Translations under genes and position numbers: made by a program
Part shown: piece after piece, positions 21,027 to 33,991 of the stretch
Numbering within the stretch: the stretch's first letter is position 1
Layout: each line of letters opens with the position of its first letter
DNA from: Fischerella muscicola PCC 7414
GTDB lineage: Bacteria > Cyanobacteriota > Cyanobacteriia > Cyanobacteriales > Nostocaceae
Reading direction: 5' to 3'
Assembly: GCF_000317205.1 (NCBI RefSeq)
Contig: NZ_AJLK01000069.1
Span: 1 to 39,100, forward strand
DNA: 39,100 bases
Notes under the pieces: generated by a model
The model's input: the letters and a program-made list of their open reading frames with translations, nothing else
What the model was told of the DNA's origin: nothing
Databases searched by the model: none

Positions 21027-21800
21027 TCAAGCAGCGGTATATCCACCATCAACAAATAAAATAGCACCAGTAATATAAGAAGATGCATCGGAAGCTAAAA
21101 AAACCAATGGGCCAATTAATTCCTCTGGTTTGCCACGACGTGCCATTGGTGTAAAAGTGACAATTTGTTTTTGCTTTTCAAGCTTTTCATGCTCTGCATT
21201 TGCACCTAGCATGATATTTTCAAAGTAGCCTGGTGCGATCGCATTCACTCGGATATTTTTCGAGGCCCATTCCACCGCCATCACACGCGTCAGTTGGTTA
21301 ATTCCACCCTTAGCAGCACTATAAGCAACCAACCCAGGAATACCCACAACAGAAGCAATTGAGGAAATATTAATAATTGCACCACCCGTATTTTGCTTCA
21401 TCATCTGGATAGCAGCAAATTGCGAACAGTGAAAATGTCCCTTCAAATTCACATTTAGAATTTCATCCCATTCAGACTCCAAAAGTGCTTCTGCGGGTTT
21501 GATAATGTCAATTCCAGCATTATTCACCAGAATATTAACCTGTCCAAACTCATTAACTGCAAACTGAATCAAATCATTACAACTATCACTCTCCGAAATA
21601 TCAACAAAAGTTGCACTTGCAACTCCCCCAGCATCTTTAATCGTTTGTGCTGTTTGTTTCGCTTCCTCAAAATTGCGATCGCCAACAATCACCTTCACAC
21701 CAAGATCAGCCAAACCCACAGCCATCACCTTTCCCAAACCCCGTCCGGAACCAGTGATAATTGCCACTTTCCCAGACAAATCAAATAAATTTGGTTGCAT
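21027..21800 (-). CDS. FabG-like short-chain dehydrogenase inside the hyp operon
   Basis: Classical SDR oxidoreductase of 257 residues. It has TGSGRGLGK for cofactor binding, NNAG, a catalytic Ser in INISSIASV, and YSAAKGG with Tyr and Lys. A Rossmann fold runs throughout, and the C-terminus GAILFVDGGYTA is typical of the FabG/glucose dehydrogenase group. The ATG at 21798-21800 is preferred to a TTG four codons earlier. It lies between the tautomerase and hypE genes on the same strand, a place where I recall no gene in Nostoc PCC 7120. The substrate is unknown, and a role in hydrogenase maturation is only suggested by position. Confidence 0.92.
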   Translation of the reverse strand: MQPNLFDLSGKVAIITGSGRGLGKVMAVGLADLGVKVIVGDRNFEEAKQTAQTIKDAGGVASATFVDISESDSCNDLIQFAVNEFGQVNILVNNAGIDIIKPAEALLESEWDEILNVNLKGHFHCSQFAAIQMMKQNTGGAIINISSIASVVGIPGLVAYSAAKGGINQLTRVMAVEWASKNIRVNAIAPGYFENIMLGANAEHEKLEKQKQIVTFTPMARRGKPEELIGPLVFLASDASSYITGAILFVDGGYTAA

Positions 21801-21867
21801 ACATCCAATCAAAAGTTAACTACCTTCCCGTAAAAATCTTGCTAAGAAACTCCTCTTTAACCTCTTG

Positions 21868-21940
21868 ACTCTGTGTTCTCTGTGCCTCTGTGGTTAAATA
21901 AAAAACTTTTTAACCACAGAGAGGCAGAGGGCGCAGAGAA
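21868..21940. repeat. Inverted repeat between tautomerase and SDR genes
   Basis: The left arm is CTCTGTGCCTCTGTGGTTAA and the right arm begins TTAACCACAGAGAGGCAGAGG; they pair imperfectly around AT-rich sequence. Related CTCTGTG/CTCTGCGG text occurs near 28105-28140. It can fold in the operon mRNA. Confidence 0.8.
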
Positions 21941-21997
21941 AAAAAGAAATTTTTCGATTCACCTTGAAAGGGCTATTATTTAACTTTTGACTTAAAT

Positions 21998-22213
21998 TTA
22001 CACCCCCTTCTCCACATGCCTACCACCATGTTTATCAACATGTAAAACACCACCGACAGCCCAATTTTCCCTTTCAAACTCATCAATATGTACAGTCACC
22101 CATTCCGGCTTAGTACCCATAGTCGTAACCAAAGCATCAGTAATTGCTTGCACCAACTGCCGCTTCTTTTCAATAGAATGACCCTTCGTAATTTGAACAG
22201 TCACAAATGGCAT
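21998..22213 (-). CDS. 4-oxalocrotonate tautomerase-like small protein
   Basis: A 71-residue protein that begins Met-Pro (MPFVTVQITKGHS). Pro becomes the N-terminal catalytic base after Met removal in the 4-oxalocrotonate tautomerase family. The rest (EKKRQLVQAITDAL, then VTVHIDEFERENW) fits the beta-alpha-beta fold. GGAGG lies four bases before the ATG at 22213, which decides that start over one four codons upstream. A similar gene (asr0697, as I recall) lies between hypD and hypE in Nostoc PCC 7120 and is co-transcribed there. Its substrate and link to hydrogenase are unknown. Confidence 0.9.
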   Translation of the reverse strand: MPFVTVQITKGHSIEKKRQLVQAITDALVTTMGTKPEWVTVHIDEFERENWAVGGVLHVDKHGGRHVEKGV

Positions 22214-22282
22214 AAAACCTCCCATTCTTCTTGGCTTCTTGGCGTCTTGGCGGTTCGTCCAAAAAAGATATTCTGCAATTCG

Positions 22283-23796: not shown

Positions 23797-26217
23797 TTAT
23801 TTTTTGATGAGTTTGGCGGCTGCAATTACTGCTTGACCTAATGATAGTCCGCCATCATTGCAGGGAGTTAGGCTGTGAGTTAGTGTGTTGATGCCTGAAT
23901 TTTTGAGATATTTACTGAGTTGTTCTAACAAGATACGATTTTGGAATACTCCTCCGCTCAAGACTACAGTTTTGATGTGATGATGTTGACACAATGAAGT
24001 AGCTATTTTCCCAATGGCTTGAGCTAAACTGATGTGAAATTTAGCAGCTATGACTCCTGGAAAAGTTTGCTGCTGTAAGTCCTTTAATAAGGCTTGCCAC
24101 AGTGGGCTTGGGTCTATACAGTAAATATTATCTAAAATGTTAATTTCAAAAGAATAATTTTGGTTTTCTTCATAATTATTTAAAATATTCCTATCAACTA
24201 AAGCTTCCATTTCCATTGCTGCTTGCCCTTCATAATTACATTCTTCTCGGCATATACCGATGGCAGCAGCTACGGCATCAAATAAACGTCCTACGGAGGA
24301 AGCTAAGGGAGAATTTATTTTTTTTGAGACTAGTTGATTGAGAAGTGGTAGGGGTTTATTGTTGAGAAATTTAATTATTTCTAAATCACCATATTGGCTG
24401 CTGATTTCTTCCCAAGAAAATGCTGATATTAATTGAGCGTAAGTGTTACGCCAAGGTTGGTAAATTGCCTGTTCTCCACCAATCATGGCTACTGGTTTAA
24501 ATGTTGCTAATCGCTGAAATTGGTGATAATCTGCTAAGAGAAATTCACCACCCCAAAGTGCGTTATCTTCACCGTAACCTAAACCATCTAAGGCGATACC
24601 TAATACAGGTGATGAATCTAGAGGAAGATGATTTTCTGCCATGCAAGCGGCAATATGGGCGTGATGATGTTGGGTAGAATAAATAGGAATTTGATTGGAA
24701 AATCCTAGTTCTTGACCGAGTTTTGTAGATAGATATTCAGGATGTTTGTCAATGGCGATCGCTTCTGGTTTATGCTCGAACAAGTTTAAGTATAAGTTGA
24801 GGGTATTTTGATAGGCTGTAAAGGTGGCTGCATTTTCTAAATCTCCCAAATGTTGAGATAAAATGGCTTGTCCATCATTTAATAAACAAAAGGTATTTTT
24901 TAACTCGCCACCCATTGCTAAAATTGCTGGGACATGATCAAATCCAGGTGGTAATTTAATCGGTGCTGGTGCGTATCCTCTGGCGCGACGAATGATTTGT
25001 ACTTGATCACCAACTACCCGCACTACTGAATCATCTACGCGGTTAACAATCTCTCGGTTATGTAAGAGGAAATAATCAGCTATTTTACTTAGTTTCTCTC
25101 GTGCTTCATCATTATCAATACATTGTGGTTCATCAGAAATATTGCCACTAGTTAAGACAATTGGGCGGTTCATGCGCTTAAGAATTAAGTGATGTAAAGG
25201 TGTGTATGGCAACATGAAGCCAAGGGTATTTTGTTTTGGGGCGACGGAGGGGGAGATGGGGAGGTGGGGAGATGGGGAGATGGGGGGAGTGTGAGGAGTG
25301 TGAGGAGTGTGAGGAGTGTGAGGAGTATTTTTAGTGTTTGGTTCTTTTTTCTGCAACAAGACAATGGGTGCGGCGGAACTTTGCAATAATTCTCTTTCTT
25401 TGTCGCTGACAATGCAGTATTTCTCTATGATTTCTAAATCCCGCGCCATTAAAGCGAAGGGTTTGTGATAACGCTGTTTACGCTGGCGGAGTTTTTGCAC
25501 AGCTGTTTCATTTGTCGCGTCGCAAGCAAGGTGAATTCCGCCGATACCTTTGATAGCGACAATTTCACCTCTCTGCAATAAAGTACACACAGCATCGACA
25601 TCATCCAACATCGAAAACATTGAAGCTGTAATTGGTTTACCATCGGCACGTTCTAATGTTGCTTTTGGGCCGCAAACATGACAAGCTACAGGTTGGGCAT
25701 GAAAGCGACGGTTTTCGACATCGTTATATTCTTTGGTACACTCTGCACACATGGCGAAAGCTGCCATGCTGGTGTGAGTGCGATCATAAGGAATAGCACG
25801 AATAATACTCAAACGGGGACCGCAATAAGTACAATTTGTGAAGGGATAGCGATACCAGCGACTATAAAAATCAAATATTTCCGCTTGGCATTGCGGACAA
25901 GTAGCAGCATCGGGGGCGATTTCTGTTTTGGCAGCACTACTGATACTATGAGAAATCACAAAATCATGGAATAAAAATTCTTTTTCATAACGCTTGCGTG
26001 TGAGTTGATTAATTCTTGCTAAAGGTGGGCATTCTTGCTGTAATCTTTTGATAAATTCTTCTATCGATTCATCAGTTCCAGAAGCACGAATTAAAACGCC
26101 TTCACCATCATTACAAACATCACCACGCAACCCACAAGCCTTAGCGAGTCGATATACAGTCGGGCGAAATCCTACCCCTTGAACAGTACCGCGAACCCTT
26201 ATTTCTTCAGTAGTCAT
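23797..26217 (-). CDS. hypF: Carbamoyltransferase HypF
   Basis: Uses carbamoyl phosphate and ATP to carbamoylate HypE, the first step of cyanide ligand synthesis. The 806-residue protein has, in order, an acylphosphatase domain (VRGTVQGVGFRP, about 5-90), two zinc-finger-like motifs (CPQC...CTYC and CAEC...CHVC, about 105-190), a YrdC-like domain (about 200-390) and a Kae1-like domain (HHHAHIAAC; VLSGGVFQN). Residues about 297-327 are a Thr-Pro-His and Pro-Ser-rich insert encoded by a DNA tandem repeat, at a point where HypF normally runs straight from VLLQK to APKQNTLG. I used the ATG at 26215-26217; an upstream start adds 17 non-family residues. Confidence 0.96.
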   Translation of the reverse strand: MTTEEIRVRGTVQGVGFRPTVYRLAKACGLRGDVCNDGEGVLIRASGTDESIEEFIKRLQQECPPLARINQLTRKRYEKEFLFHDFVISHSISSAAKTEIAPDAATCPQCQAEIFDFYSRWYRYPFTNCTYCGPRLSIIRAIPYDRTHTSMAAFAMCAECTKEYNDVENRRFHAQPVACHVCGPKATLERADGKPITASMFSMLDDVDAVCTLLQRGEIVAIKGIGGIHLACDATNETAVQKLRQRKQRYHKPFALMARDLEIIEKYCIVSDKERELLQSSAAPIVLLQKKEPNTKNTPHTPHTPHTPHTPPISPSPHLPISPSVAPKQNTLGFMLPYTPLHHLILKRMNRPIVLTSGNISDEPQCIDNDEAREKLSKIADYFLLHNREIVNRVDDSVVRVVGDQVQIIRRARGYAPAPIKLPPGFDHVPAILAMGGELKNTFCLLNDGQAILSQHLGDLENAATFTAYQNTLNLYLNLFEHKPEAIAIDKHPEYLSTKLGQELGFSNQIPIYSTQHHHAHIAACMAENHLPLDSSPVLGIALDGLGYGEDNALWGGEFLLADYHQFQRLATFKPVAMIGGEQAIYQPWRNTYAQLISAFSWEEISSQYGDLEIIKFLNNKPLPLLNQLVSKKINSPLASSVGRLFDAVAAAIGICREECNYEGQAAMEMEALVDRNILNNYEENQNYSFEINILDNIYCIDPSPLWQALLKDLQQQTFPGVIAAKFHISLAQAIGKIATSLCQHHHIKTVVLSGGVFQNRILLEQLSKYLKNSGINTLTHSLTPCNDGGLSLGQAVIAAAKLIKK
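25238..25326. repeat. Tandem repeats inside the hypF frame
   Basis: On the plus strand, 8-mers of GGGGAGAT type are followed by four 9-mers GTGTGAGGA. On the coding strand they read PPISPSPHLPISPS and repeated T-P-H. The same 9-mer style (GTATGAGGA) occurs after hupL at about 33383-33408, and G-rich arrays occur at 33433-33540 and 39015-39100. No stop or frameshift results. Confidence 0.85.
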
Positions 26218-26243
26218 TTTGCATAATTCAAAGATATAGATAA

Positions 26244-26294
26244 ACACAGATGCACACCGATAAATCATCTGTGTTTATCTGTGTGCATCTGTGT
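26244..26294. repeat. Dispersed inverted repeat (ACACAGATGCACAC family), copy 2
   Basis: The left arm ACACAGATGCACACCGATAA (26244-26263) and the right arm TTTATCTGTGTGCATCTGTG pair almost fully. It is nearly identical to 19761-19811, including the internal CATCTGTG part. It lies between the NHL gene and hypF. Confidence 0.88.
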
Positions 26295-26340: not shown

Positions 26341-27513
26341 TCATCCCATTCTCCACAGCAAAACTCGATTATTTCCAGAATCAGCAACTACCGCCGTGTT
26401 ACCACAAACTTTGATGCCATAACACCAGTTAAGACTGTCTCGCTTTGGTTGTCCAAAATCCCAATTTTCTCCCTTACTCGTAAAATTATTTTGTCCTGCG
26501 ATCGCATCAGCCGCAGCCCCATGCAAAGATAAAATTGACTCAGGCTTTTGCCAACCAAGTAACCGAGAATTAGCCGTATCCGCTACCAATAACCAATCAC
26601 CAACCGCATCTACACCATAAGGCATACTCAAACTACTCGCACTAGGAAAATAAACCCCTTGATTCATCTCAACAACATCAAAACTTTTTTGTCCTAACAC
26701 CACAGCACAAGGAGTATTATTTTCTGTAGGCATTCCCTCCCAAATCATCACACGATTATTTCCCGCATCTGTGACAACCAGATTCTCTCCCCAAAAAGTG
26801 ATATCGTGACACCAACGCATACTGGAAGCAGAAGGACTACCACCGCCATTTTCATTGCGAGATGTCATATTTGGTTGTCCCAAAACTAAATCTGCTGGTT
26901 GTCCATTTTCTTCTGGTAATTTACGCCAAATCAACACCCGCCGATTTCCTGTATCAGCTACGAATAACCGCCCTTGATGATAGAAAACTCCATAACACCA
27001 GTAGAGAGAATTTGCTGCTGCTTCTTGCTTGCCTTGATTCGGTTCGTTATCACTAAAATTTACTTGTCCTAAAACTAAATCCGCTGCAACATTACTATCT
27101 TCCGGCACTTGTTTCCAAATCAAAACGCGGTGATTCCATGCATCTGCTACCGCCATTCCTTCACCACATCGACAAATTCCAGTCGGTACACTCAAAGTCC
27201 TTCTTCCTACTTTATCATTAGCATTTTGTCCTTCACTATGAAAGTCTGGTTGCCCAATTACCCAGTCAGCAGGTTGACTATCTTGGGTTGGTAAATTTCG
27301 CCATCCTAACAAGCGATGATGTCCCGTATCTGCAACCCACAACGGCCCATTTTCTGATATTAAGCAAACAGCGCGAGGACCGAACATTTCAACAGCACTA
27401 GGTGCAACAGGAGTGGCTAATTCCCCTGGTAACATCATTCTACCTAAAATTACCTCTGCACCGTTAGGTGATAATAGTGAATTATGAGTATGTAATACTG
27501 ATGAAAAATTCAT
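26341..27513 (-). CDS. NHL-repeat beta-propeller protein of the extended hyp operon
   Basis: A 390-residue soluble protein built from six repeats of about 62 residues. Each has a blade core such as DTGHHRLLGW, DAWNHRVLIW, DTGNRRVLIW, DAGNNRVMIW, DTANSRLLGW and DSGNNRVLLW, preceded by ADLVLGQPNF-like strands. This predicts a six-bladed NHL propeller, probably for protein binding. No signal peptide is seen, so it should be cytoplasmic. An equivalent gene (alr0693 as I recall) precedes hypF in Nostoc PCC 7120 and is co-transcribed with it. A part in HupS maturation has been proposed for this group; nothing in the sequence proves it. Confidence 0.9.
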   Translation of the reverse strand: MNFSSVLHTHNSLLSPNGAEVILGRMMLPGELATPVAPSAVEMFGPRAVCLISENGPLWVADTGHHRLLGWRNLPTQDSQPADWVIGQPDFHSEGQNANDKVGRRTLSVPTGICRCGEGMAVADAWNHRVLIWKQVPEDSNVAADLVLGQVNFSDNEPNQGKQEAAANSLYWCYGVFYHQGRLFVADTGNRRVLIWRKLPEENGQPADLVLGQPNMTSRNENGGGSPSASSMRWCHDITFWGENLVVTDAGNNRVMIWEGMPTENNTPCAVVLGQKSFDVVEMNQGVYFPSASSLSMPYGVDAVGDWLLVADTANSRLLGWQKPESILSLHGAAADAIAGQNNFTSKGENWDFGQPKRDSLNWCYGIKVCGNTAVVADSGNNRVLLWRMG

Positions 27514-27545
27514 TTAACAACCAACAACCAACAAACAACAAACAA
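27514..27545. repeat. Short STRR array between Nfu and NHL genes
   Basis: Units of AACAACC and AACAAAC type fill nearly the entire 37-base junction. On the coding strand they read as GTTGTTTGTTGGTTG immediately before the NHL ATG, so that start has no clear ribosome-binding site. Confidence 0.75.
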
Positions 27546-27550
27546 GCAAA

Positions 27551-28027
27551 TTAACCTACCGCAATAACATGATTTATTTCCGGACAATATGCTTTAATTG
27601 TTTGTTCAATTCCTTGAGACAAAGTTAACGTCGAAGCTGGACAATTACTACAATTACCAATTAATTTCACTTCCACTGTATCCGGTGCTGTAATCGCCAC
27701 TAATTCCACATCCCCATTATGGCTTTTTAAACCAGGACGGACTTCATCTAAAGCTTGTTGAACACGTTGTTGTAAAGGTGGTGTTGGTGATTTTACTAAT
27801 TCATGATAAAGCAATACCCCGTAAACCACTTCATCTTGAACAGCATTACGTAAAGCTGATACTGACTCTTGTTTAACACTTTTAATTAAACGAGTTAAAG
27901 CTTCTTTATGTAAATCTTCAATAGCACGTTTTAAGCCTATAGCCACGCACCTTTGACTCTCTTCCCACTCAGATATTATCGCTTCAAAACGGCTAATTTC
28001 TTGTACTAATTCTTCTAGTGAAATCAT
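27551..28027 (-). CDS. NifU-like (Nfu-domain) protein of the extended hyp operon
   Basis: A 158-residue protein. The C-terminal half (about 90-155) is an Nfu domain with the cluster-binding CSNC motif (NCSNCPASTLTLSQGIE) preceded by DEVRPGLKSHNGDVEL. The N-terminal half is helical and unlike NifU. Nfu domains carry or transfer [4Fe-4S] clusters. Within a hydrogenase maturation operon this makes it a good candidate for supplying clusters to HupS or HypD. The equivalent in Nostoc PCC 7120 is alr0692, from memory. The start ATG is at 28025-28027. Confidence 0.92.
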   Translation of the reverse strand: MISLEELVQEISRFEAIISEWEESQRCVAIGLKRAIEDLHKEALTRLIKSVKQESVSALRNAVQDEVVYGVLLYHELVKSPTPPLQQRVQQALDEVRPGLKSHNGDVELVAITAPDTVEVKLIGNCSNCPASTLTLSQGIEQTIKAYCPEINHVIAVG

Positions 28028-28063
28028 TATATATTGGTTAATTGTTGGTTGTTAGCTAGAGTG

Positions 28064-28187
28064 CAATACGGTTCAGTGAAGCAATTTTTCCCTTCTCCTT
28101 CTTCTTTCTCTGTGTCCTCTGCACCTCTGCGGTTCGTTAGAAAAAATAACTTTGACAAAGAGTGCTAGCCTTAACTGAACCGTATTG
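28064..28187. mobile_element. MITE-like element with 18-bp terminal inverted repeats
   Basis: Starts CAATACGGTTCAGTGAAG and ends CTTAACTGAACCGTATTG, which match as inverted repeats at 17 of 18 positions. The interior is 88 bases of non-coding DNA that includes CTCTGTGTCCTCTGC. No transposase is present. A solo end, CAATACGGTTCAGTTAAGG, occurs at 35548-35566. The likely origin is a non-autonomous transposon remnant. Confidence 0.75.
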
Positions 28188-28213
28188 AGTTATAGTGCGT
28201 GATAGCAAAGCCG

Positions 28214-28309
28214 TAACTTGGTGACTTTGTGCCTTGGTGGTAAAAAATCTTAAACCACCACGACACCAAGATACAAAGAGTTTTTATATGTTCTGGTGTA
28301 CGTAGTTCA
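28214..28309. repeat. Dispersed inverted repeat, uninterrupted copy
   Basis: TAACTTGGTGACTTTGTGCC through CTTGGTGG is answered by CCACCACGACACCAAGATAC. It is the compact form of the interrupted copy at 2180-2352. It lies between the Nfu gene and the small membrane protein genes, next to the MITE-like element. Confidence 0.85.
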
Positions 28310-28333
28310 TGTTAGCTACTAACAATCAAAAAT

Positions 28334-28558
28334 TCATTTCATTCTGAAATCTTGCAGCAAGAAAGGCATAAGAGTACCCGTTGTGACGCTAGATAATATT
28401 ACTGTTAGCCACAACGGAAAATGCAAGAATAACGGTACAATTAGTAACAATAAACCTATACTAGCCCCAATAGCAGTTTGCTGCCAAAAATACTGCGGAT
28501 CACGTATGAGTTTACCCTTAAAAAATAATTTAGCAGAAAACCAGCCTATTTCTAACAT
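28334..28558 (-). CDS. Small membrane protein, 74 residues, extended hyp operon
   Basis: Unrecognised family. The N-terminus (about 1-26) is polar with basic residues; two hydrophobic segments follow (about 28-48 and 49-68), predicting a hairpin in the membrane. A strong AGGAGG lies six bases before the ATG at 28558. That ribosome-binding site overlaps the stop codon of the gene before it (TTTTAGGAGG), so the two are coupled. Corresponds by position to one of asr0689/asr0690 of Nostoc PCC 7120, as I recall. Function unknown. Confidence 0.8.
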   Translation of the reverse strand: MLEIGWFSAKLFFKGKLIRDPQYFWQQTAIGASIGLLLLIVPLFLHFPLWLTVILSSVTTGTLMPFLLQDFRMK

Positions 28559-28566
28559 ACAACCTC

Positions 28567-28806
28567 CTAAAACTTAGGACAAAAATTCAAAAGTAACAAT
28601 CCTAATACCATAGCTGGAATAACACCCGCAGGGGCAAATAATCCACCGATGGTAGCAGCAAATTTATAACCTAATTCTTCTCCGGCTAAAAGTATGCCGC
28701 CAATTGCACCACCTACTACAGATAATCCAGTTGCTATGATTAACCAGATCAATCCTGTAAGTAGGTTAATATCTCCTGATACTAAGGTTGTAAGTAAATC
28801 TGTCAT
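28567..28806 (-). CDS. Small glycine-rich membrane protein, 79 residues, extended hyp operon
   Basis: Unrecognised family. Two hydrophobic segments (about 15-42 and 50-76) are rich in Gly and Ala (VVGGAIGGILLAG; GGLFAPAGVIPAM), which favours close helix packing. GAGGAG lies nine bases before the ATG at 28806. It begins 19 bases after the TPR gene and is coupled to the next small membrane protein, so the pair probably works together. The function is unknown; an anchor or membrane partner for the hydrogenase system is conceivable. Confidence 0.8.
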   Translation of the reverse strand: MTDLLTTLVSGDINLLTGLIWLIIATGLSVVGGAIGGILLAGEELGYKFAATIGGLFAPAGVIPAMVLGLLLLNFCPKF

Positions 28807-28825
28807 AGTTTATTCTCCTCATAAT

Positions 28826-29776
28826 TCATAGTTCTGCCAATACTTGGGCTACTACTTGGGCTTGTTCTATTTGTCCATATTTAGTAAAAATTTCCCAAGC
28901 TTGTTGATAGTAATTACGCGCTTGTGTGAAATTTTGCTGATTACCTGTTTCTGGTTTACTCAAGTCGTCGGGTAAATTAAGTAAAGCGTTGGCTTTGTTA
29001 GCAATCGTGTTAGCGTATTCTATTGGTGTATCTTTGAGATTACGCACTTTTAAAGCTTGATCATAAGCAGCGATCGCTCGCACTAAATTATCCAAGGGAT
29101 GAGATGATGGTAAATATTGCAAGGCATTACCTAAATTATTCTGCAACATCGCATATTCCCTGGGATGATCAATGATATTAATGTGTTTTAGTGCAGCCTC
29201 AAAAGTTTGTACCGCCAAGCCTTCAAACAAATACTGCTGTTGCAAACCTCCTGACATCGAAAGATAGGCGATCGCAATATTGTTATGTAAAATCGCATAT
29301 TCCTGCGGGTAATTTTCCCAGGTAAATACTCGCAAAGCTTCTTGATATAGCTGGATGCTATCTCCGATTTGTGCCAAGTTGAATGGTACTAAAGATTGTA
29401 GCACCAAGCCATAATTCATTTGGGCTTCTGCCACTTCTTCAGATGAAGCAAATTCTTGTAAAACAGGTAATGCTTCTGTGTACAAAATTTGCGCTTGTAA
29501 TAACAATTCTTCTGTGTCGTTGGGTATTGCCCGTAGCGCCCCAGCCCTTCCTATTTTTGCCCGCGCTTTTAGTAAAAAGTAATCTTCACCACATAAATTT
29601 TCTGCTTCTTGATATAGGGCGATCGCATTCCACAAATCTTGAGCAGTTTTTGGTTTTTTGACAAAGCCATGTGCCATCTCAATTAGCATCTCAATTTTAT
29701 CTTTTGTTGATGCTGACTCAGAAGCAATAGCAGCGATCGCTGCCTTGGTGGCGGCATCTGTAATAGTTTGTGTCAT
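28826..29776 (-). CDS. TPR-type repeat protein, first gene of the extended hyp operon
   Basis: A 316-residue soluble helical protein with repeats of TPR character: AIALYQEAENLC, SIQLYQEALRVF, AVQTFEAALKHI, AIAAYDQALKVR and ARNYYQQAWEIF, several followed by EYA-x-LxNNxxxA. TPR arrays bind protein partners. It is the first gene of the minus-strand cluster and lies divergent from hupS, with a 916-base spacer. The equivalent gene in Nostoc PCC 7120 is probably alr0691. A scaffold or chaperone role for HupS is a hypothesis. Confidence 0.88.
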   Translation of the reverse strand: MTQTITDAATKAAIAAIASESASTKDKIEMLIEMAHGFVKKPKTAQDLWNAIALYQEAENLCGEDYFLLKARAKIGRAGALRAIPNDTEELLLQAQILYTEALPVLQEFASSEEVAEAQMNYGLVLQSLVPFNLAQIGDSIQLYQEALRVFTWENYPQEYAILHNNIAIAYLSMSGGLQQQYLFEGLAVQTFEAALKHINIIDHPREYAMLQNNLGNALQYLPSSHPLDNLVRAIAAYDQALKVRNLKDTPIEYANTIANKANALLNLPDDLSKPETGNQQNFTQARNYYQQAWEIFTKYGQIEQAQVVAQVLAEL

Positions 29777-30692: not shown

Positions 30693-31655
30693 ATGACTAA
30701 CGTATTATGGCTACAAGGTGGCGCCTGTTCAGGTAACACCATGTCATTTTTAAATGCAGAAGAACCAACTGTCTGCGATTTAATTTCTGACTTTGGTATC
30801 AACGTACTGTGGCATCCTTCCTTGGGGTTAGAATTAGGAGAAAATTTGCAAGGGATGCTGTGGAATTGTGTGCTAGGTAAGATCCCTGTAGATATTTTGG
30901 TGTTTGAAGGTACGGTAGTTAACGCCCCCAACGGTACAGGAGAATGGAACCGCTTTGCCCATCGTCCGATGAAAAATTGGGTTAGTGATTTAGCAAAAGT
31001 AGCTAAGTATGTGGTTGCAGTCGGCGACTGTGCTACTTGGGGAGGAATTCCCGCTATGGCCCCTAATCCTAGTGAATCCCAGGGTTTACAATTTCTCAAA
31101 CGGCAAAAGGGTGGGTTTTTAGGGGTAGATTACCGTTCCAAAGCTGGATTACCTGTAATTAATATACCTGGATGTCCTGCTCATCCCGACTGGATAACGC
31201 AGATATTAGTGGCGATCGCCACAGGTCGCATTGGCGATATTACCCTTGACGAATTCCATCGTCCCCAAACTTTCTTCAAAACCTTTACTCAAACAGGTTG
31301 TACTCGCAACATTCACTTTGCTTATAAAGCTACAACTGCCGAATTTGGTCAACGTAAAGGTTGTCTATTCTACGACTTGGGTTGTCGTGGCCCCATGACC
31401 CATTCTTCCTGTAACCGGATTTTGTGGAACCGCGTTTCTTCCAAAACTCGTGCTGGAATGCCTTGTTTGGGTTGCACCGAACCAGAATTTCCCTTCTTTG
31501 ACCTCAAACCGGGAACAGTATTTAAAACCCAAACTGTTATGGGAGTTCCCAAAGAACTACCGCCAGGGGTGAAGCAGAAAGATTATGCCTTACTCACCGT
31601 AGTGGCAAAAGACACCGCCCCAGCTTGGGCAGATGAAGACTTTTTCTTAGTTTAG
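30693..31655 (+). CDS. hupS: Uptake [NiFe]-hydrogenase small subunit HupS
   Basis: Electron-transfer subunit with iron-sulfur clusters that takes electrons from H2 oxidised at HupL. In cyanobacteria it recycles H2 made by nitrogenase. The 320-residue protein lacks a twin-arginine signal, as expected for the cyanobacterial (group 2a) enzyme. Cluster ligands appear in GGACSGN (C12), VGDCATWGG, NIPGCPAHP, TQTGCTRN and the C-rich CLFYDLGCRGPMTHSSC and MPCLGC segments. At the proximal site the second Cys of the usual CxxC is Asn15. No clear ribosome-binding site precedes the ATG. hupL follows after 127 bases. Confidence 0.97.
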   Translation: MTNVLWLQGGACSGNTMSFLNAEEPTVCDLISDFGINVLWHPSLGLELGENLQGMLWNCVLGKIPVDILVFEGTVVNAPNGTGEWNRFAHRPMKNWVSDLAKVAKYVVAVGDCATWGGIPAMAPNPSESQGLQFLKRQKGGFLGVDYRSKAGLPVINIPGCPAHPDWITQILVAIATGRIGDITLDEFHRPQTFFKTFTQTGCTRNIHFAYKATTAEFGQRKGCLFYDLGCRGPMTHSSCNRILWNRVSSKTRAGMPCLGCTEPEFPFFDLKPGTVFKTQTVMGVPKELPPGVKQKDYALLTVVAKDTAPAWADEDFFLV

Positions 31656-31782: not shown

Positions 31783-33378
31783 ATGGGAACTCAAACATTA
31801 GACATCTCACCCGTCGGGAGGGTAGAAGGCGATTTAGATGTACGGGTGGAAATCGAAGATGGTTATGTAGTCAACGCTTGGACTCATGCCGAACTTTTTC
31901 GAGGCTTTGAAGTGATTCTACGCGGCAAAGACCCCCAAGCTGGCTTAATTGTTACACCCCGTATCTGTGGAATATGCGGTGGTTCTCACCTTACCTGTGC
32001 ATCTTGGGCATTGGATACCGCCTGGGAAACCGAAGTTCCACGCAATGCGATTTTAGCTAGAAACCTCGGTCAAATCGTCGAAACAATTCAAAGTATACCC
32101 CGCTATTTTTACGGCCTATTTGCCATTGACCTCACTAACAAAAAATACCAAAATAGCCGCTATTATAACGAAGCAGTCCGCCGCTTTGCTGCTTTTACTG
32201 GCAAGCATTACGAAATTGGCGTGACTATTTCTGCCAAACCTGTAGAAATTTACGCCCTTTTGGGTGGTCAATGGCCCCATTCTAGTTACATGGTTCCTGG
32301 TGGCGTCATGTGCGCCCCTACCCTCACAGATATTACCCGCGCCTGGTCAATCCTAGAATACTTCCGCACAAATTGGTTAGAACCTGTGTGGTTGGGCTGT
32401 TCTTTGGAACGCTACGAAGAAATCCAGACCTACGATGACTTTATGGCTTGGTTGCATGAAAACCGTAACCATCGCCAGTCAGACTTGGGTTTCTATTGGC
32501 GTATGGGTTTAGATATTGGTTTAGATAAATTTGGTGGTGGTGTAGGTAAATACGTCACTTGGGGATATCTACCCCATGAAGATAAATACCAAAAACCAAC
32601 CATCGAAAGCCGCAACGTTGCCATGATCATGAAGAGTGGGGTGTACGACAGTTACAGCGACACTCACACCTTGATGGATCATACCTTTGCCCGGGAGAAT
32701 ACCACTAACTCCTGGTACGACGAAGGTACAGCAGATGTTCATCCTTTTGACCGCACCACCAACCCCACCGCCAAAAATCACAAAGACTTCAACGGTGCTT
32801 ATTCTTGGTCAAGTGCAGTACGCCATATCGAATATGGACGTTTAGAAGCTGGCCCCTTAGCGCGGCAATTGGTCGCAGGTGGTACACATGGCGAATCTTG
32901 GCAACATTATGATGGATTTATCCTTGATGTTTTCAAGCGTATGGGCGGTCCCAGCGTCCATGTCCGTCAGTTGGCGCGGGTTCACGAAATTGTCAAGTTG
33001 TATCGTCAAGCCGAACACTGTCTACGGGAGTTCAAATTAAATGAACCTTGGTACATCAAACCCAAACAAAAAGATGGTCGTGGTTGGGGTGCAACAGAAG
33101 CAGCGCGCGGTTCCCTGTGTCACTGGGTAGAACTAGAAGACGGCAAAATCAAGAACTACCAAGTCATCGCCCCGACAACATGGAATGTCGGGCCTCGCGA
33201 CGCACAACAAAAGCGTGGCCCCATTGAAGAAGCCTTGGTGGGTATACCCGTTGCTGATCCAGCCGACCCTATAGAAGTAGGTCATGTCGCCCGATCCTTT
33301 GATTCTTGCTTGGTGTGTACAGTTCACGCCCACGATGCCAAAACAGGCGAAGAGTTGGCGCGCTTCCGAACAGCTTAG
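31783..33378 (+). CDS. hupL: Uptake [NiFe]-hydrogenase large subunit HupL
   Basis: Catalytic subunit that oxidises H2 at a Ni-Fe(CN)2CO centre. The 531-residue protein has the N-terminal motif RICGIC (near residues 63-68) and the C-terminal motif DSCLVCTVHAHD, which together provide the four Ni-binding Cys. The HAHDAKTGEELARFRTA end implies that a short tail is removed by a HupW-type protease, whose gene is not in this window. I took the ATG at 31783 (MGTQTLDISPVGR); the frame is open upstream into the repeats. The gene is not interrupted by a hupL excision element. Confidence 0.97.
   Translation: MGTQTLDISPVGRVEGDLDVRVEIEDGYVVNAWTHAELFRGFEVILRGKDPQAGLIVTPRICGICGGSHLTCASWALDTAWETEVPRNAILARNLGQIVETIQSIPRYFYGLFAIDLTNKKYQNSRYYNEAVRRFAAFTGKHYEIGVTISAKPVEIYALLGGQWPHSSYMVPGGVMCAPTLTDITRAWSILEYFRTNWLEPVWLGCSLERYEEIQTYDDFMAWLHENRNHRQSDLGFYWRMGLDIGLDKFGGGVGKYVTWGYLPHEDKYQKPTIESRNVAMIMKSGVYDSYSDTHTLMDHTFARENTTNSWYDEGTADVHPFDRTTNPTAKNHKDFNGAYSWSSAVRHIEYGRLEAGPLARQLVAGGTHGESWQHYDGFILDVFKRMGGPSVHVRQLARVHEIVKLYRQAEHCLREFKLNEPWYIKPKQKDGRGWGATEAARGSLCHWVELEDGKIKNYQVIAPTTWNVGPRDAQQKRGPIEEALVGIPVADPADPIEVGHVARSFDSCLVCTVHAHDAKTGEELARFRTA
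32278..32293 (+). other. Unoccupied equivalent of the hupL-element target site
   Basis: CATTCTAGTTACATGG encodes H-S-S-Y-M. From memory, the Nostoc PCC 7120 hupL element recombines at CACAGCAGTTATATGG, which encodes the same residues; 11 of 16 bases agree. No element is present here and the frame runs through. Confidence 0.4.
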
Positions 33379-33568: not shown

Positions 33569-33991
33569 GTGTCTAACTCAGAATTACATAATTATCTTCC
33601 TGGTCTTCCCGAAGCAGCACTCCAAGAGTTCACACAATGGTGTGTGCTGGAACAAGCAACAGCAGCAGGCTACGAATTCACCCCGGATCTAGTGAAGTTA
33701 GAAAACCTGGAGACTGTAGATTATATTCAAGAATTGGTTGGTCAATTTGCTGATGCTACCAGGAAATCAATTGAAGGAAGTATGGCTATTTTAGTGGCAG
33801 GAAAGCAAGCTGATACTCATGCTTTGCCTGGTATAGCAGCGATCGTTGATTTTATTTCTCTGTATGTCAAATATTTAGTTCCTAAAGGCCCAAACAATGA
33901 ATTGCCACCTGATGAGAAGCTAAATTTAGCATCAAAAGAACAGTTTGAGCAGCTTTGTCAAATCGCTAAAAAATATAGTGTAGAAATCTAG
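33569..33991 (+). CDS. Protein of unknown function downstream of hupL
   Basis: A 140-residue acidic, soluble protein that I do not recognise. It starts with GTG at 33569, six bases after AAAGGA, and reads NYLPGLPEAALQEFTQWCVLEQA, then helical segments. One hydrophobic stretch (AALPGI-like, about 90-110, within ALPGIAAIVDFISLYVKYLVP) might pack in a core. It has two Cys (near residues 28 and 131) but no metal motif. It is on the hupSL strand 190 bases downstream, so it could belong to the same transcript, but a hairpin intervenes. Confidence 0.75.
   Translation: MSNSELHNYLPGLPEAALQEFTQWCVLEQATAAGYEFTPDLVKLENLETVDYIQELVGQFADATRKSIEGSMAILVAGKQADTHALPGIAAIVDFISLYVKYLVPKGPNNELPPDEKLNLASKEQFEQLCQIAKKYSVEI

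Follow-up and report, generated by a model that had tools for sequence, protein, structure and literature searches.

The window considered here is a 39,100-nucleotide stretch of the Fischerella muscicola PCC 7414 genome (contig NZ_AJLK01000069.1, positions 1 to 39,100). It encodes the two subunits of an uptake hydrogenase, HupS and HupL, and, between hupSL and hypF, a module of five genes for a TPR-like protein, two small proteins (here called A and B), a NifU-domain protein, and an NHL-repeat protein. An earlier note on this DNA placed the five genes on one strand, facing hupS and upstream of hypF, and the coordinates of the open reading frames (ORFs) agree. Work on biological H2 production targets HupSL (PMC6462935). 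According to PMC6616624, its link to plastoquinone and its membrane-embedded partner are little understood and remain open.

TPR-like protein: 28826-29776, minus strand; 316 amino acids (aa); ORF of the alr0691 / Npun_R0367 type
Protein A: 28567-28806, minus strand; 79 aa; glycine-rich, with two hydrophobic stretches; asr0689 family
Protein B: 28334-28558, minus strand; 74 aa; membrane-type; asr0690 type
HucE orthologue, NifU part alone: 27551-28027, minus strand; 158 aa; PF01106; without Rieske domain
NHL protein: 26341-27513, minus strand; 390 aa; six repeats; alr0693 / Npun_R0363 type
hypF: 23797-26268, minus strand; directly 3' of the NHL gene
hupS: 30693-31655, plus strand; small subunit of group 2a [NiFe] hydrogenase; 537 bits to HucS of 7UUR
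hupL: 31783-33378, plus strand; large subunit, uninterrupted; 637 bits to HucL of 7UUS

Read 5' to 3' on the minus strand, the gene order is TPR-A-B-NifU-NHL-hypF. The gaps calculated from the coordinates are 19 nucleotides (TPR to A), 8 (A to B), 306 (B to NifU), and 37 (NifU to NHL), and about 0.9 kb separates the module from the divergent hupSL. Several relatives likewise have hypF 3' of the NHL gene. The likely start of hupL is the ATG at 31783; homology searches ran from 31792 on. The group 2a assignment follows from comparison with the Mycobacterium Huc hydrogenase (HucSLM, with HucE): HupS and HupL align with HucS and HucL over near full length, at the scores listed above, and the best other PDB hydrogenases reach 126 and 201 bits, respectively.

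The same five genes lie between hupSL and hypF in Nostoc PCC 7120 (asr0689-alr0693) and in Nostoc punctiforme (Npun_R0367-R0363). The window has the N. punctiforme order, not that of PCC 7120 to which the earlier note had likened it; in PCC 7120 the TPR gene is third (PMC3126725, PMC2408588). For the Nostoc genes, an operon, co-transcription with hyp (also mentioned in the note), shared expression, and a proposed part in HupS maturation are described in PMC2408588 (2008) and PMC3126725 (2011), so the maturation idea has been in print since 2008. Both papers also list A and B as possible ABC transporters. This candidate was rejected, the proteins being 74-79 aa long with no Pfam match. In Rhizobium leguminosarum, the hupGHIJK genes hold an analogous place between structural and hyp genes and have a proposed small-subunit role (PMC3126725); the 2008 authors report that their BLAST searches found no hupGHIJK orthologues in cyanobacteria (PMC2408588).

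Proteins A and B in hydrogenase genomes

Protein A matches the NCBIfam 'asr0689 family' (NF052670; 111.8 bits, cut-off 95), with no Pfam match and no PDB relative found. Protein B has neither a Pfam nor an NCBIfam match; ATP synthase protein 8 was its sole PDB match (E 0.0087, 0.029), confined to the hydrophobic part and taken to reflect composition. In hydropathy profiles of the alignments, A shows two hydrophobic stretches, and B a single one of about 40 residues with a shallow dip, which leaves room for two short helices; two segments for each protein are given in PMC2408588. B carries positive charge at both ends.

Two genome samples bear on their distribution. The phylum sample comprises 194 genomes, each searched with six proteins. 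A group 2a HupL, defined by at least 78% identity, occurs in 30 of them (the HupL-like protein of G007, at 41% identity, was left out of this count). A, B, and group 2a HupL occupy an identical set of 30 genomes, and A and B are found in 0/164 genomes without it. The order sample comprises 384 genomes, including the 30 just mentioned, with a HupL threshold of E ≤1e-60. Comparison of the lists again gives one identical set, with B and HupL both present in 177/384 genomes and B in 0/207 without HupL. Six families of the order (f1, f5, f6, f10, f11, and f41) mix genomes with and without HupL, and B matches the HupL state each time. A was found in all eight further HupL genomes tried; its match in G358 reads over a TAG near the C-terminal end. 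The association is far beyond chance, the genomes with these two small membrane genes being precisely those with group 2a hupL. Frequent presence of the module in cyanobacteria without hupSL, the outcome that the earlier note had named as contrary to its proposal, did not appear.

A tie to nitrogenase, not to hydrogenase, was considered and rejected, because group 2a loci of many phyla hold TPR, HucE, and NHL genes, and because the four genomes without asr0689 in Table 5 of PMC2821919 are the same four without hupS.

Copy number follows the same pattern. Each of the five genomes in which two HupL loci were seen carries two B genes, as do 2 of 172 others (Fisher test, 1.5e-8); at most three HupL candidates per genome were scored, and second HupL loci may be undercounted.

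A and B also persist where other parts of the module are gone. Genome-wide searches for HucE, TPR, and NHL proteins covered the 194 genomes; in genomes added later, TPR and HucE were sought within the stretches fetched, and NHL in 19 chosen genomes (present in 14). Throughout, A and B are the only module members present in every HupL genome searched for them (B is broken in G508). G043 has neither HucE nor NHL anywhere in the genome and retains a TPR remnant; G365 lacks NHL genome-wide, has a TPR remnant, and shows no HucE in the stretch read; and G394 lacks NHL genome-wide, with TPR missing from the stretch read. For the pair G043/G365, the ratio of replacement to silent substitution rates (dN/dS) is 0.071 for the HupL part, 0.012 for HupS, and 0.059 for B. 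A has zero replacement changes in this pair, a weak indication of constraint because dS is just 0.06. In two small genomes (1.4-1.5 Mb), TPR, A, B, HupSL, and NHL are all present, and the 18-kb stretches read around A-B and hupS contain no HucE.

The same co-occurrence would be expected if A and B were membrane-bound assembly or insertion factors for HupSL, and not subunits of the finished enzyme; the position of their genes, beside the TPR gene and often upstream of hyp, not inside hupSL, points in that direction too. However, the surrounding candidate helper genes have been lost in several lineages while A and B were kept, and the match between B and HupL copy numbers suits a subunit better than an assembly factor. 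We consider the assembly-factor explanation quite unlikely.

Two further genomes are recorded here. G065 (L118) has two adjacent hupSL loci, each with its own TPR, A, and B genes, together with one HucE and one NHL gene. In G146, the contig stops soon after B.

HucE, TPR and NHL proteins

The earlier note described the fourth gene product as an Nfu-type cluster carrier. The 158-aa protein has a NifU domain (PF01106; 85.2 bits, cut-off 27) with a CxxC motif at residue 126. The protein as a whole, judged by alignment, is a HucE orthologue reduced to its NifU part, and not a complete HucE. Four aligned relatives of 275-294 aa all have the Rieske motif that the window protein lacks; it stops at residue 158, the NHL gene starts 37 nucleotides later, and no C-terminal Rieske domain is present. 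The name of the N. punctiforme NifU protein in Table 5 of PMC2821919 implies a Rieske part, unlike the window gene. The window's NifU-only gene is still constrained (dN/dS 0.152 against G489 and 0.068 against G487).

HucE varies widely among the 30 HupL genomes of the phylum sample: full length in 17 (a frame of 269-310 aa with NifU and Rieske parts), NifU-only in 2 (the window and G024), broken in 4, and absent in 7. On a HupL tree built from one gene fragment (366 aa of HupL), these states require 9 changes, at least 7 of them forced by well supported branches; the count does not separate gains from losses. The alphaproteobacterial outgroup carries full-length HucE. The states are not clustered on the tree more than shuffled labels (115/500 shuffles were as low). 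In each of the 30 genomes the reading frame of the 366-aa HupL part is open, and dN/dS is low for HupL, HupS, and B in the pairs tested. HucE is thus probably dispensable for HupSL in cyanobacteria, since the full-length gene is missing in 13/30 hydrogenase genomes while hupSL is intact and conserved; this assumes that a conserved HupSL is an active one.

These patterns bear on the idea that HucE accepts the electrons of HupSL and passes them through its Rieske centre to the quinone pool, with A and B holding HucE at the membrane. In Mycobacterium smegmatis, mutants in hucE or hhyE alone oxidise less H2 and the double mutant none, which the authors see as lending some support to an acceptor function without discarding one in assembly (PMC6883350); the 17 cyanobacteria with full-length HucE and the Rieske motif of the four aligned relatives agree with it. 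Yet the Rieske part is missing from the window and G024, and the gene is broken or absent in 11 more genomes, all with an open HupL part; HupL and HupS are constrained in the pairs tested; and A and B remain where HucE is gone. As an account of the cyanobacterial enzyme, the acceptor role is very improbable.

The TPR and NHL proteins are kept more widely. The TPR protein matches Pfam TPR_12 weakly, below the cut-off (20.6 bits against 30.1). Strong homologues (at least 363 bits) are present in 28/30 HupL genomes and 0/164 others. The NHL protein (PF01436; 68 bits, cut-off 20) has repeat cores at residues 60, 122, 185, 247, 310, and 376, in keeping with the six-bladed propeller named in the earlier note, and the six repeat aspartates are invariant in 37 aligned homologues from cyanobacteria, plasmid loci, and other phyla. 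Strong NHL homologues (at least 556 bits) are likewise found in 28/30 HupL genomes and 0/164 others, with weak matches in six others. NHL and TPR have each been lost in some HupL genomes.

Group 2a loci in other phyla, and other features of the window

NHL-repeat proteins and HucE are reported near hucL in several phyla (PMC7784904), and a mycobacterial plasmid huc locus has TPR, HucE, and NHL genes in the same order as the window. In Mycobacterium, HucM is described as linking Huc to the membrane and admitting menaquinone (PMC10017518, PMC10792529). The cyanobacteria differ: DUF1641 (PF07849), the HucM family, is found in 0/30 cyanobacterial HupL genomes, which have A and B instead, and the window HucE lacks the Rieske domain. 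A DUF1641 protein from a non-cyanobacterial group 2a locus is identified as HucM because it matches chain Q of 7UUS (7uus_Q, E 2.9e-34). Its next PDB matches, to YjlC and 'NDH-2 membrane coupling protein' (E 0.13-0.24, not significant alone), would fit a membrane-coupling role for the DUF1641 protein.

A survey of 72,556 plasmid records found a 2a-like HupL (at least 55% identity) in 17, and NHL in those 17 plus one weak match elsewhere. Eleven of the 17 loci were read, the other six being further Bradyrhizobium records. All eleven have TPR and NHL genes, nine have HucE, and three have HucM. A and B are present in six alphaproteobacterial loci among the eleven, DUF1641 in none of these six, and the alphaproteobacterial order, TPR-A-B-HucE-NHL-hypF, is that of the window. 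Separately, the Bradyrhizobium and Sphingopyxis loci (L095:10692-11343 and L096:11674-12383) encode two related proteins of 103-126 aa 3' of hupL, with conserved cysteines and the ending W[WS]C[RK]LWRI; the Bradyrhizobium pair has no Pfam family.

A further 80 loci come from genomes titled Bacillota, Chloroflexota, Actinomycetota, Acidobacteria, Planctomycetes, Gemmatimonadaceae, and others. Among the 64 with enough downstream DNA, TPR was found in 63, HucE in 63, and NHL in 60; among the 62 with enough upstream DNA, HucM was found in 56; and A or B was found in 0/80. The profiles for loci L095-L221 were iterated on those same loci, which biases such counts toward finding members. Seven Bacillota-titled loci examined include six with HucM and none with A or B; the seventh begins at hucS. 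In Parageobacillus thermoglucosidasius, the huc genes beside the group 2a hydrogenase run TPR, hypothetical, NifU, NHL, and are called maturation proteins by the authors; unlike the window, the huc operon there is headed by a DUF1641 gene (PMC12976888, 2026).

The breadth of these loci is one reason to consider all five genes as a single HupS maturation system, the view of Agervald (2008) and, in effect, of the earlier note: the NifU protein would carry clusters, A and B would provide a membrane site, and the TPR and NHL proteins would bind HupS. TPR, HucE, and NHL genes adjoin nearly all non-cyanobacterial group 2a loci read; the NifU domain has its CxxC motif; and the Nostoc genes sit between hupSL and hyp, with co-transcription and shared expression (PMC2408588, PMC3126725). 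The losses count against a single kit, because one unit would disappear together: just 17/30 genomes have full-length HucE, whose states changed at least 7 times on the tree, and NHL and TPR have been lost in some genomes where A and B have not. A common maturation system is therefore unlikely. The proposal is thus partly supported: the genes are partners of the hydrogenase, but one functional kit centred on a cluster carrier finds no support.

Some other features of the window may be noted. A 140-aa protein encoded 3' of hupL (33569-33991, plus strand) has no Pfam or NCBIfam family and lies near hupL in at least 17/30 HupL genomes, a lower bound with a flank of only 1.5 kb in some of them. 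Inside the hyp cluster, two frames lie between hypD and hypE (21027-22225, minus strand), one of them a tautomerase; the other we take to be short-chain-dehydrogenase-like. A tautomerase in the hyp cluster is known from PCC 7120 (asr0697; PMC2408588). The NtcA consensus GTAN8TAC occurs 14 times across the window, against 6.65 expected (0/100 shuffles reach 14), and none of these matches lies between the TPR gene and hupS. Promoter and terminator scans gave results close to chance level.

A proposed membrane coupling of HupSL

The explanation that we consider moderately probable is that A and B are membrane-coupling subunits of HupSL, the TPR and NHL proteins are assembly factors, and HucE is a dispensable accessory. 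The five genes would then form an accessory cassette of the group 2a (Huc/Hup) hydrogenase whose parts have different jobs. A and B would anchor HupSL, otherwise a soluble enzyme, on the cytoplasmic side of the membrane, where its distal iron-sulphur (FeS) cluster would meet plastoquinone. They would occupy the place held in Mycobacterium and its kin by HucM, a stalk protein unrelated to them. The TPR and NHL proteins would be hydrogenase-specific assembly factors: helpful, widely kept, and at times lost. The NifU protein, HucE minus its Rieske domain, would be an accessory for cluster supply or repair, its job replaceable by others.

A and B are read as membrane-coupling proteins because they are of membrane type and are found in every HupL genome in which they were sought, because B copy number tracks that of HupL, and because the HucM family is absent from these genomes. 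Gene content, co-occurrence with HupL, the HucE losses, and the lack of DUF1641 in the cyanobacteria are observations; that A and B act in membrane and quinone coupling, that TPR and NHL serve assembly, and that HupSL works in strains lacking HucE are inferences. A more specific form of the proposal is possible, though we hold it only tentatively: A and B would be a two-protein quinone-coupling module that arose in the cyanobacterial/alphaproteobacterial branch of HupL and replaced HucM; the hairpins of the glycine-rich A and the basic-ended B would form a membrane docking site or quinone port; and HupSL would reduce plastoquinone directly, without the HucE Rieske centre. Homology of A and B to HucM was rejected (hhalign probability 0.2% for A and 0.1% for B).

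Several observations weigh against the main explanation. The role favoured for A and B is deduced from gene content and co-occurrence, and strict co-occurrence would fit an essential maturation factor as well. Profile comparison shows no resemblance of A or B to HucM, or of one to the other, and single B sequences tested mostly give one hydrophobic segment. The contrast between HucM and A/B is largely one split of the HupL family, cyanobacteria and Alphaproteobacteria against the rest, and so represents few independent events. Neither solution is universal, because in two Bacteroidota loci (L099 and L103, on Runella and Hymenobacter plasmids) HucM and A/B are both missing from the stretch read, and six of the 62 further loci (L184, L193, L198, L200, L206, and L216) have no detectable HucM upstream of hucS and no A/B. 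G508 (L251; 8101-8760, 14741-14977) is the one apparent exception to an intact A/B set: its A-B pair is decayed, the only B found being interrupted by an in-frame stop, while another A, intact, stands by itself near hupS. After deletion of hucM, Huc is still active in lysates (PMC10017518). A need for TPR and NHL meets a further objection: in Parageobacillus, expression of both stands at 0.01-0.04 fragments per kilobase per million reads (FPKM) at all growth rates, whereas neighbouring genes climb to hundreds, with up to 1586 for hucL and 714 for DUF1641 (PMC12976888, Table 1). These near-zero values may be an artefact of mapping, because hypB is equally low (0.02-0.03 FPKM; PMC12976888).

Besides NHL, the Bacteroidota loci encode a large TPR protein, and HucE is missing from the stretch read; they may represent a third membrane-coupling solution.

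The fit of A and B to the place of the membrane-embedded HupSL partner (PMC6616624) was missed by the earlier note, and no earlier proposal of A and B as a membrane anchor was found in the published passages on these genes that were read. The A and B genes are thus two small candidates for the membrane seating of HupSL and for electron transfer to plastoquinone. If the proposal is true, A and B would be the membrane subunit long sought for the uptake hydrogenase of cyanobacteria. If HupSL still works in strains devoid of HucE, the HucE Rieske centre can scarcely be essential in cyanobacteria. Engineered HupSL may need A and B for membrane coupling.

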